From the NCBI RefSeq assembly GCF_005221325.1, contig NZ_CP039888.1, positions 1,116,001 through 1,180,000 on the forward strand: a stretch of 64,000 nucleotides of DNA, in the 5' to 3' direction. The stretch's first letter is position 1, and each line of letters begins with the position of its first letter. The notes beneath the pieces are model-generated. The model was given only the letters and a program-made list of their open reading frames with translations. It searched no databases and was not told the origin of the DNA. Of the stretch, positions 31,106 to 33,835 are shown piece after piece. Both the position numbers and the translations under genes were made by a program. Source of the DNA: Agrobacterium tumefaciens (lineage in GTDB: Bacteria > Pseudomonadota > Alphaproteobacteria > Rhizobiales > Rhizobiaceae).

Positions 31106-31215
31106 GATCGACAAGGGTAAGTGGAACTTGGTCTGAGCGCAAGAAAAACCCGTCTTGTCAGCGGGGTAGCCATGGCGCATTTATCACCGCAATAATGTCT
31201 TTCTCCGAGGATTTC

Positions 31216-32070
31216 ATGACCCCCATACCTGCTGCCGAACCCGTGGATGCCGCCGAGCGCCGTGCCATCCGTCCCGTCGTCGTTTATCCGAATGGCACAC
31301 TTGAGACACCGGACCTTGCGCGCCTGGAGCAGGCAAAGAACGGCATGGAGAAGATCGACGAAGTCATCGTACCCGCGCGTGACGGCCGCACCTTCAATGT
31401 CCCCAAGGGGCATTTTTTCCGCATCGTCAGCATCGAAGGCCCGCAGGTGGGGGATTTGAACCTCTGGAACGCCCATGATCTGAACGAGCGCTTTTTCAGC
31501 GGCAAGACGCGCGCGCTGCATGCCACCCATGTTTCCGTCGGCAACCGGCTGTGGAGCAACCTGCCGTCGCTTCGGCCGATGGCGACCATCACCCATGATA
31601 CGCTGTCCTGGTGCGGCTTCGACGAGGACGGGGGCGGCGTGCATGATGTGATCGGCACCCGCTGCGATCCCTATACCAACAAGCTGCTGAGTGGTGGCGA
31701 TTATCACCATTGCTGCCATTCGAACCTGACGAATGCGCTTGCTTCGGCCAAAGGCCTATCGTTCTGCGAGGCCGAACCGCATGTACATGACGTGCTGAAT
31801 GTCTTTATGTGCACCGGTTTCACCCGTAATACACACCAGTATTTCATGAAGGCTAGCCCGGTGCGGCCGGGTGACTATCTGGAATTTTTCGCGGAAATCG
31901 ACCTCATCGGCGCGCTTTCCGCGTGTCCCGGCGGCGACTGCAGCGCCACGCATTCAAGCGACACGGCGGCCTGTTATCCGCTGAAGGTGGAAATATTCCG
32001 GCCTGATATGTCGGTGCTGGAAGGTTGGCCATGGCCGGAGCGGAATGCGTACCGCAATCCTGTGGAATGA
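31216..32070 (+). CDS. DUF1989 (urea carboxylase-associated) family protein
   Basis: The 284-residue protein belongs to the DUF1989 family, named for its association with urea carboxylase genes. Conserved segments include GDLNLWNAHDLNERF, the TLSWCGFDEDGGGVHDVIGTRCDPYTN stretch, HHCCHSNL and FMCTGF; the Cys/His richness suggests a metal site. No urea carboxylase gene is adjacent. The ATG at 31216, after CGAGGATTTC, is preferred to ATG 31195, which has no obvious ribosome binding site. The divergent LysR gene probably regulates it. Confidence 0.84.
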   Translation: MTPIPAAEPVDAAERRAIRPVVVYPNGTLETPDLARLEQAKNGMEKIDEVIVPARDGRTFNVPKGHFFRIVSIEGPQVGDLNLWNAHDLNERFFSGKTRALHATHVSVGNRLWSNLPSLRPMATITHDTLSWCGFDEDGGGVHDVIGTRCDPYTNKLLSGGDYHHCCHSNLTNALASAKGLSFCEAEPHVHDVLNVFMCTGFTRNTHQYFMKASPVRPGDYLEFFAEIDLIGALSACPGGDCSATHSSDTAACYPLKVEIFRPDMSVLEGWPWPERNAYRNPVE

Positions 32071-32127
32071 TGAGAAACGCCACAGCCGTCATGCCGGACT
32101 TGTGTGGACGTAATATGGTTTACTGGA

Positions 32128-32277
32128 GCATTGGCCGGGATGCGCATCCCGGCCAATGCAGGCAGGAGGCCGTATTTCCGGACTGGTTGAAACAGCCGAG
32201 ATCAAGCAAGGCCCTGCCTGCTCCCTTTGACCCCGAACGGTTGCTCGGGCTTTCGCCCGCACCACAAGCCTGGGAGC
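32128..32277 (+). ncRNA. Candidate IS110 bridge RNA
   Basis: A 32-base perfect palindrome (half-site GCATTGGCCGGGATGC, 32128-32159) forms a 5' stem-loop. GCAGGCAGG (32158-32166) pairs with CCTGCCTGC (32213-32221) to close the target loop, and GCTCCC (32220-32225) with GGGAGC (32272-32277) to close the donor loop. The target guides are CCGGACT (32178-32184) and GATCAAG (32200-32206). The donor guides are ACGGTTGCT (32237-32245) and CACAAG (32263-32268). Small hairpins GGTTG-AAA-CAGCC and CGGGC-TTTC-GCCCG cap the two loops. The exact RNA ends are estimates. Confidence 0.82.
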
Positions 32278-32283
32278 AAGGCC

Positions 32284-33222
32284 ATGATACAGGAACTTCT
32301 CTTCGTCGGCATCGATGTTTCCAAAGCCCGCTTCGATATCGTTGTGCATCCTTCCGGCAAGTGCTGGAGTATAGGCAGTTCACCTGCACAGATCGCGGCT
32401 CTCATTGAGCGCCTTCAGGCGCTTGGACAGGTCATCGTTGGGCTGGAGGCATCTGGCGGTTACGAGCGCAGGCTGGCTGACAGTCTGCATGCGGCAGGCC
32501 TGAAGGTTTATATCCTGCCGCCCGCAAGGGTTCGCAACTTTGCCAGGGCCATGGGCCAGCTGGCAAAGACCGATAGGATCGACGCCGCCGTGATCGCCCG
32601 CTATCTGGCGACGGTACACAATAGTCTCACGCCCTATGAGCCAGACGCTGCCCGCAGCAGCCTCAGCGCTCTGGCGGCTCATAGACGCAGGCTGGTCGCC
32701 GAAAAGAGCGGCCTGACGAGCCAGCTCGATACCATCGAAGAGCCGCTGGTGCGTGAGATGCTGGAGGTGCGTCTGCGTACCATCGCCACTGATATCGCCA
32801 CCCTCGACCGCGCCATGCGCGACCTGCTGAAGGCGACACCCGCCCTGCGAAAACGTCACGACAGGATGTGTGAGGTCACCGGTGTCGGCCCGATGCTAGC
32901 CACCGCGCTCCTTGCCGATCTGCCCGAACTTGGCACCGTTTCGTCAAAGGTCATCGCTGCCCTGGTCGGCGTCGCACCGCATGCGCGCCAATCCGGATCC
33001 TCCAACCGCCAGGGCAAATGCTCCGGCGGCCGCAAGCATCTGCGCGACATCGCCTACATGGCCGCCCTCAGTGCCATCAAGATAAAAGACCCGGTCCTCG
33101 GCGCTTTCTACCAGCGCCTGCGCAGCAAAGGAAAACCCTTCAAGCTGGCCATAGTCGCAACAATCCGAAAACTCGTCACGATCCTCAACGCCATCGCCAG
33201 AACAGACCCCGCGTTTAACTGA
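32284..33222 (+). CDS. IS110-family transposase (DEDD recombinase)
   Basis: The 312-residue transposase has an N-terminal RuvC-like DEDD domain with Asp11 (VGIDVSK), Glu55 (GLEASGG), Asp97 and Asp100 (KTDRIDA), a central coiled coil, and a C-terminal Tnp20 domain (VTGVGPMLATALLADLPEL, GVAPHARQSGSSNRQGKC) that carries the catalytic serine in this family. The ATG at 32284 follows GGGAGCAAGGCC. The reading frame is complete and uninterrupted, so the element may still be active. Confidence 0.95.
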   Translation: MIQELLFVGIDVSKARFDIVVHPSGKCWSIGSSPAQIAALIERLQALGQVIVGLEASGGYERRLADSLHAAGLKVYILPPARVRNFARAMGQLAKTDRIDAAVIARYLATVHNSLTPYEPDAARSSLSALAAHRRRLVAEKSGLTSQLDTIEEPLVREMLEVRLRTIATDIATLDRAMRDLLKATPALRKRHDRMCEVTGVGPMLATALLADLPELGTVSSKVIAALVGVAPHARQSGSSNRQGKCSGGRKHLRDIAYMAALSAIKIKDPVLGAFYQRLRSKGKPFKLAIVATIRKLVTILNAIARTDPAFN

Positions 33223-33385
33223 GCATCCACGGTTGCTTGATCCGGCATCCAGCCACGGCGCGTCTGCGCCGTGAAAAGAATCTTTCGCGATCAAGGACTT
33301 GATCGCACTGGACCCCGGACCAAGTCCGGGGTGACGGCGTGGGATATGTTACGGCTTTGTCAGATAAGCATGTGCGAGGCCGACA

Positions 33386-33814
33386 TCAGGAAGCGAGCGC
33401 CGCCTTTATCTTCTCCGCATGAGCCTTCAGCACCTCGCCATCGGCCATCACGCCGGAATGCGGCTTCAGCGGCTCGCCTTCCTTGCGCGGAATGACGTGG
33501 AAATGCAGATGGAACACGGTCTGGCCAGCCGCCGGCTCGTTGAACTGGGCGATGAAGACGCCATCCGCATCGAAGGCTTCCTTGGCGGCCACAGCCAGTT
33601 TCTGCACCACGGGAATGGTTCTTGCCAGCACTTCAGGGTCGGCATCGAGCAGATTGCGAGAGCCGGTCTTGGGAACGACGAGCAGATGGCCGGGGGCCTG
33701 CGGCATCACATCCATGAAGGCCAGCGTGTGCTCATCTTCGTAAAGCTTGTGGCTCGGAATTTCGCCGCGCAAGATTTTTGCGAAGATATTGTTATCGTCA
33801 TAGGCGCTGGTCAT
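33386..33814 (-). CDS. HIT-family nucleotide-binding protein
   Basis: The 142-residue protein is a histidine-triad hydrolase; relatives split AMP-linked or dinucleoside phosphates. The triad HLHFHVI is at about residues 99-105, and the N-terminal NIFAKILRGEIPSHKLYEDE is typical of the HinT/HIT branch. It is last in a four-gene minus-strand run, 21 bases after the GNAT-like gene. Confidence 0.92.
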   Translation of the reverse strand: MTSAYDDNNIFAKILRGEIPSHKLYEDEHTLAFMDVMPQAPGHLLVVPKTGSRNLLDADPEVLARTIPVVQKLAVAAKEAFDADGVFIAQFNEPAAGQTVFHLHFHVIPRKEGEPLKPHSGVMADGEVLKAHAEKIKAALAS

Positions 33815-33835
33815 CGGTGATCTCCTCATCGCGGA

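Follow-up and report, generated by a model that had tools for sequence, protein, structure and literature searches.

Guides matching the target site and the element ends in a predicted bridge RNA of an IS110-group element from Agrobacterium tumefaciens

The window, by which we mean the whole stretch of 64,000 nucleotides of Agrobacterium tumefaciens DNA that was analysed (assembly GCF_005221325.1, contig NZ_CP039888.1, positions 1,116,001 to 1,180,000 of the forward strand), contains an IS110-group insertion sequence with a recombinase gene and a noncoding left end. The host genome comprises six contigs (6.1 Mb) and has four copies of this insertion sequence, identical over the element. Its neighbours in the window are ordinary: a DUF1989 protein is encoded at 31195-32070, and a HIT-domain protein at 33386-33829. 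The features discussed below are listed here in window coordinates.

32094..32100, plus strand: left target arm CCGGA followed by the CT core (core 32099-32100), from the sequence and from the repeat common to all four genome copies
32101..33235, plus strand: IS110-group element, 1135 bp between two CT cores; four identical genome copies, outer flanks differ
32119..32124, plus strand: TTTACT, candidate -10 element, in the circle 17 nt after a TTGCTT that spans the joined ends
32128..32159, plus strand: 5' hairpin of the predicted bridge RNA; fold z -5.9 (on 32126-32162), two-sided changes in 6 of its 14 pairs in relatives
32160..32219, plus strand: target-binding loop and stem, from the fold, shuffles and pair changes in relatives
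32178..32184, plus strand: left target guide CCGGACT, identical to the left target arm and core (32094-32100); tracks the target in relatives
32200..32206, plus strand: right target guide GATCAAG, reverse complement of CTTGATC (33236-33242); T/C/G variation tracked in relatives
32220..32277, plus strand: donor-binding loop, closing stem GCTCCC (32220-32225) with GGGAGC (32272-32277), from the consensus structure; pairs invariant, hence no covariation support
32237..32245, plus strand: left donor guide ACGGTTGCT, identical to the right end of the element and core (33229-33237); the right-end 7-mer recurs in the donor-loop region of 33 of 33 elements
32263..32268, plus strand: right donor guide CACAAG, reverse complement of CTTGTG at the left end (32099-32104)
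32272..32276, plus strand: GGGAG, likely ribosome-binding site of tnp, within the donor-loop closing stem and 7 nt before ATG
32284..33222, plus strand: IS110 recombinase, 312 aa, from PF01548, PF02371, NF033542 and the IS621 and ISCro4 homologues
33236..33242, plus strand: CT core (33236-33237) and right target arm TGATC, from the sequence
32141..32288, minus strand: antisense match to Rfam sX15 (RF02234) that spans the full model, 27.3 bits where the gathering score is 55, E 0.0072

The recombinase contains the DEDD RuvC domain (PF01548, 84.5 bits) and the Transposase_20 domain (PF02371, 59.4 bits), and scores 198.7 bits, against a cut-off of 140, for the NCBIfam family NF033542, 'IS110 family RNA-guided transposase'. 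The recombinases of IS621 and ISCro4 are structurally solved homologues. The five residues that form the catalytic set of IS621 (D, E, D, D and S, as named in PMC11208158) all align in register with the window recombinase, and the ISCro4 alignment does likewise. The element reaches 183 nt to the left of the recombinase gene and 13 nt to the right of its stop codon. It has no long terminal inverted repeats; a CT dinucleotide core is found on both sides, and a short subterminal repeat, CCAC/GTGG, can be seen by eye on the joined ends. In recombinase, catalytic residues, ends, target guides and donor guides alike, the element agrees with the IS110 group (IS621 type). The element does not fit the IS1111 group, with its guide RNA in the right end and its long subterminal repeats, as the RNA lies in the left end and the right end extends so little beyond the stop codon. 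A second IS110-group element is present in the host genome in two copies (L062 and L064, at G000:C1:576037-576942 and G000:C2:1274332-1275237), and its target guide GGAATCC matches the REP-like site GGAAT-CC-AGCC; a CT core was tried for this second element and rejected, its core being CC.

The preliminary description of this DNA had proposed an IS110 element whose left end folds into a 5' hairpin and two guide loops, with a target loop matching both target arms, a donor loop matching the element's own ends and core, and all four guides in the order and orientation of the IS621 bridge RNA model. Each part of this proposal was borne out. A check of positions by script found CCGGACT and GATCAAG to match the two target arms exactly, and ACGGTTGCT and CACAAG to match the ends of the element and the core in the same manner; taken over 7 letters, the right donor guide fits in 6. 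Chance, which had been judged an unlikely source of these matches, fares poorly: of 200,000 versions of the left end shuffled by mononucleotide, 15 had both target guides in the observed order, and none of 1000 random CT-core targets fitted the left end as well as the element's own target. The two letters that follow ACGGTTG in the donor loop are CT only in the window element and in G257, and AT or AC in the other six aligned copies; the core letters of the left donor guide are thus not conserved.

The RNA as a whole folds better than all of 200 dinucleotide shuffles (z = -3.6). Taken by part, z is -5.9 for the 5' hairpin alone, -2.0 for the target loop and only -0.5 for the donor loop alone, which means that the signal comes mainly from the 5' hairpin and the target stem and that the donor loop alone folds no better than shuffles. 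We also examined changes in the stems among seven aligned copies, which represent six distinct elements, as G026 is counted twice. Both sides have changed in 7 of 45 pairs (six in the 5' hairpin and one in the target stem) and 98.7% of cells pair, neither of which was reached by any of 500 shuffles. One of the five structure measures, the number of further pair types, showed no excess over shuffles, 407 of 500 reaching the observed value. The donor-loop stems are invariant and so say nothing on covariation.

Insertion is at the centre of a palindrome, ATGCCGGACTTGATCCGGCAT, which is repeated at dispersed places in the genome, and all four host copies lie in sites that are exact over the 12 guided bases. 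Unoccupied CCGGACTTGATC sites number 7 when exact and 93 with one mismatch, and with the setting unchanged the reversed pattern has 22 matches. By our own arithmetic, if each of the four insertions were equally likely to use any of the 11 exact and 93 near sites, all would be exact with a chance of about 7 in 100,000. If instead the 21-bp repeat is taken with up to 2 mismatches, there are 24 empty repeats, of which 3 have the exact 12-mer, and the chance is about 0.002 (again our own arithmetic). Both figures assume independence, and the four copies may not represent four independent choices.

If the guides direct insertion, they should differ among relatives as the targets differ; as evidence against a bridge RNA the preliminary description had named related copies with guide loops that fail to fit their targets. 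The close relatives, whose proteins are 62-82% identical over the part that matches, were found in two genomes from the host's genus and in one from its family, and also in Shinella, in a Novosphingobium MAG and in Devosia limi. The window guides CCGGACT/GATCAAG match their site CCGGA-CT-TGATC in full, as do the guides TCGGGCT/GGTCAAG in the two copies of G026, which lie on TCGGG-CT-TGACC (the corresponding site is TCGGGCTTGACC). In G008 the right guide GCTCAAG matches TGAGC in full and the left guide has one mismatch; the Shinella element has one mismatch in the right guide, the Novosphingobium element one left mismatch and a G-T wobble, and G257 one mismatch in each guide. The Devosia right guide fits six of six right flanks, and its left guide ACGGGCT fits two of five left flanks in full and the other three in 6 of 7 letters. 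Over seven close elements, one row each, 64 of 70 guide letters fit (permutation p 0.017, or 0.038 with the least favourable Devosia flank), with a permutation maximum of 66, above the observed value. In both copies of G026, L041 and L049, the transposase frame is broken by one additional C in a run near codon 22; that the two share it suggests movement in trans or frame slippage.

A wider test covered 33 elements, including that of the window, out of 43 that were set up. Donor-end motifs served to define the ends, and each left end was scored by its best 7+7 match to the element's own target and to foreign ones. Eight elements were dropped because an end was missing or not definable (L047, L068, L069, L077, L079, L085, L086 and L088), along with L080 (of L076 type, right flank cut) and L082 (the same as L081 in all that was compared); Devosia is not among the 33, each of its copies having at least one end out of view. 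Roughly twelve elements had already been inspected by eye when the formal test was run, and the end motifs were written after some had been seen. For L045 the left end was placed by homology with L062, L056 and L070; among several left-end candidates, one was chosen for its likeness to the ends of relatives and to the donor loop.

The scores for own targets sum to 392, compared with 343 in the best permutation, and none of 20,000 permutations reached 392, with the reservation that the 33 elements are partly related and the rows not independent. The mean score is 11.9 for own targets and 9.5 for foreign targets. A score of at least 12 of 14 was found in 26 of the 33 elements; lower values were obtained for L067, L045 and L070 (11 each), L089 (10) and L087 (8), and for L052 (8) and L056 (7), both of which are without a left flank. 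The own target was better than every foreign one in only 11 elements, at least one foreign target tying with it or beating it in the other 22. The right guide is complete (7 of 7) in 18 of 33, and the two guides are spaced 21-26 nt apart in 27 of 33. Among the misfits, L065 has one mismatch per target guide, L040 and L092 one each, L093 one mismatch and one G-T wobble, and L087 is without a match. At the donor side, the right-end 7-mer is found in the donor-loop region of every element, in six motif variants, and the right donor guide is partial, with 4-7 of 7 letters. Guide loops thus vary with target and donor sequences among relatives, which the preliminary description had asked to be tested, and the paired stem changes point the same way; taken as a whole, with its misfits, the comparison favours guidance.

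L075, whose protein identity is 39%, has wholly different guides, TCATCCT/GCCCGAG, with 14 of 14 letters matching, and inserts at another position of a similar palindrome. It belongs to G173 (L075, L090, L145 and L146), where a palindrome like that of G026 is used at CATC-CT-CGGG instead of CGGG-CT-TGACC, and the guides match. An IS110 subgroup formed by L089, L142, L143 and L144 (G254) together with L046, L072 and L073 has its insertions where a T-rich stretch begins. A GC-rich hairpin precedes that stretch in the four G254 copies, so that the site looks like a transcription terminator; in L046, L072 and L073 the right guides are rich in A, in keeping with their T-rich sites.

From what is known of IS621, the element would leave as a circle, in which the joined right and left ends, CCACGGTTG-CT-TGTGTGG, would make a promoter of TTGCTT, 17 nt and TTTACT. 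Such a junction promoter would transcribe the bridge RNA from just upstream, and integration would swap TTGCTT for GGACTT. The recombinase would use the RNA to pair circle and target, with strand exchange at CT. TTTACT is kept in all seven aligned copies. The junction has 7 of 12 consensus letters by our own count, and a consensus promoter scan of the integrated form found none; the junction promoter is for these reasons put forward as a proposal. As the donor-loop stem GCTCCC/GGGAGC contains the likely ribosome site of tnp, the folded RNA should hide that site, so that folded bridge RNA and translated mRNA may exclude each other.

The opposite strand of the same stretch resembles a known RNA family. 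The sX15 match is the best Rfam match of the stretch, yet it lies under the gathering threshold; the plus-strand scan gave chance-level matches only, the best having 19.1 bits against a gathering score of 86. The whole sX15 model likewise aligns to the antisense of the bridge RNA in three relatives, with 25.2 bits in L041, 33.3 in L075 and 47.0 in L108 when each was scanned alone; when 18 loci were scanned together at E 0.05, L100 was the only one to match sX15. In L100 one strand has a score of 120.2 bits and the opposite strand 35.8 bits; palindromic stems make this possible, and it is a caveat to a clean reading of the strand. When 398 genomes of the phylum were searched with RF02234, 5 of them yielded 13 matches, of which one, L100, is over the cut-off. 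An IS110 transposase is in view at six of the 13 loci (L100, L102, L103, L104, L106 and L108, with L102, L106 and L108 being copies of one element), and in all six the transposase match begins 15-41 nt from the sX15 5' end, on the opposite strand and running the other way. At the other seven loci (G710) no transposase was found at E 1e-5, the loci being cut to 1596 bases with contig ends near the match.

Guide fit on the strand opposite sX15 was tested in three distinct elements. This strand matches its own site in 13 of 14 letters in L108 and in 12 of 14 in L103, where 2 of 32 foreign targets score as well as the own target. In L100 it has TAACGCCT in the target loop, and the left flank is TAACGC-CT (by eye, left side only). 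The sX15 consensus, when reversed, contains ACAGTTGCT, which equals an IS110 donor end and core. Read at the level of sequence, RF02234 describes the complement of an IS110 bridge RNA. The original sX15 paper is reportedly that of Schmidtke (2012). The one further paper found on sX15 in Xanthomonas (PMC6337395), as far as it could be consulted, gives only the name.

On this evidence, all of it from sequence comparison, we consider that the IS110-group element almost certainly carries a genuine bridge RNA in its left end; judged by its relatives, this RNA would specify both the landing site and the ends of the cargo. That one is found here is expected, given that bridge RNAs are predicted in 85.7% of IS110-group elements (PMC11208160). 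The left end might instead be only a structured 5' untranslated leader of tnp, its guide matches being due to chance or to a target copied into the element. A stem over the likely ribosome-binding site would suit such a leader, and that of ISPpu9 can control translation (PMC8450116); however, guides that track differing targets and donor ends in relatives would be left unexplained by a plain leader, and this explanation appears highly improbable. It is less probable still, to the point of being negligible, that the protein reads the palindrome to choose its target and that the RNA match merely follows from the repeat content of the palindrome. All four copies do lie in one palindromic repeat, and a preference of several IS families for REP sequences has long been known (PMC1525189), but in relatives whose insertions lie away from the palindrome axis (G173) or at terminator-like positions (the G254 group) the loops still match, in full in L075 and in part (10-13 of 14) in L046, L072, L073 and L089, and the guide spacing of 21-26 nt in 27 of 33 elements also speaks against it.

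The functional RNA might also be the antisense strand, similar to sX15 or Asr9, in place of a sense bridge RNA. For this speak the end-to-end minus-strand position of the best Rfam match and the existence of Asr9 of ISPpu9, a proven antisense RNA over the tnp leader (PMC8450116). Asr9 is about 180 nt long and complementary to the 244-nt leader, has its promoter within the first eight tnp codons, and raises tnp translation (PMC8450116). The guides of the window element, however, have the sense order and polarity of the IS621 model; the scan found no antisense promoter, and by eye there is only a TATCAT without a -35 element. Nor is a conserved antisense promoter in the first tnp codons supported, as no sigma-70 site was found in the scan and codons 1-24 are only mildly more conserved at silent sites: identity there is 0.55, compared with 0.47 for the rest and 0.33-0.62 for other 12-codon blocks (five elements, without G026, whose frame is broken). 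We therefore give the antisense strand as sole functional RNA hardly more than token weight, comparable to that of the leader. A sense bridge RNA and an antisense RNA could coexist, and by analogy an Asr9-like antisense regulator over the window bridge RNA is plausible.

Bridge RNAs have been known as a kind since 2024 (Durrant 2024, PMC11208160; Hiraizumi 2024, PMC11208158), as have seekRNAs (Siddiquee 2024, PMC11187229); our search of the literature found no paper on the window element itself. With the bridge RNA of IS621, that of the window shares its position in the left end, the succession of 5' hairpin, target loop and donor loop, and guide polarity, CT core, a REP-type target and a DEDD/S recombinase (PMC11208160, PMC11208158). 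The two differ in guides, target palindrome and host, and the recombinases are only remotely similar (phmmer E 2.3e-21); the subterminal repeat, seen by eye, has 4 bp in the window element, and the IS621 paper reports 2-3 bp. The seekRNAs of ISEc21 and IS1111 elements (PMC11187229) have in common with it that a noncoding region directs the site and that natural reprogramming is seen among relatives; in IS1111 the RNA lies downstream with guides in reverse order, whereas it is upstream in the window element. ISPpu9 (PMC8450116) shares the IS110 family, REP sequences and a leader that hides the ribosome site. It has an antisense RNA over the leader and a second sense RNA downstream, whereas in the window an antisense RNA is a candidate suggested by the sX15 match. 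Among ISRm19 and the other REP-targeting IS described in PMC1525189 are IS110 elements in rhizobial palindromes, like that of the window. A table in that 2006 paper includes an unnamed IS110-type element with a PivNM-type transposase, in REP of A. tumefaciens C58 (1 of 5); as far as it could be consulted, the paper gives the site preference and no RNA.

The element is likely to be rare among genomes of the order and class: with 5-7 candidates scored per genome, an RNA-model search at E 1e-4 found it in 1 of 397 genomes of the order and a protein search at E 1e-65 in 1 of 385 genomes of the class, in both cases the host's own. On plasmids, no close relative above 60% protein identity was found at E 1e-40, and there was one short DNA match; the exact donor-loop pattern gave 0 matches in viral contigs. 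The window element is a clean, readable addition to the bridge-RNA family, and its close relatives, with guides and sites one or two letters apart, form a natural series that is useful for deriving mismatch rules.

In our view the sX15 link weighs more than a new bridge RNA. Should the Rfam strand be correct, the catalogue entry for an antisense partner is older than the knowledge of bridge RNAs; should it be wrong, the RNA so catalogued was the bridge RNA itself. On either strand the RF02234 entry is open to reinterpretation, and antisense control of RNA-guided recombination can be tested directly. We tentatively suggest, while rating it as somewhat short of an even chance, that IS110 bridge RNAs are accompanied by an antisense RNA beginning next to the tnp start codon and covering both guide loops; sX15 and Asr9 would be examples, and the window element has the same layout. 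By freeing the ribosome site of tnp and disarming the guide as well, such an RNA would act as a switch between production and use of the recombinase. The ISPpu9 paper (PMC8450116) predates bridge RNAs, and the text of the seekRNA paper (PMC11187229) has neither 'antisense' nor 'ISPpu9'; a search by title and abstract found no literature joining Asr9 or antisense RNA with bridge RNA, the ISPpu9 paper itself aside. At L100, around 1680-2050, the sX15-type element seems by eye to lie in an integron attC-like site (TAACGC-CT), and further attC-like sequence is seen near 2000.
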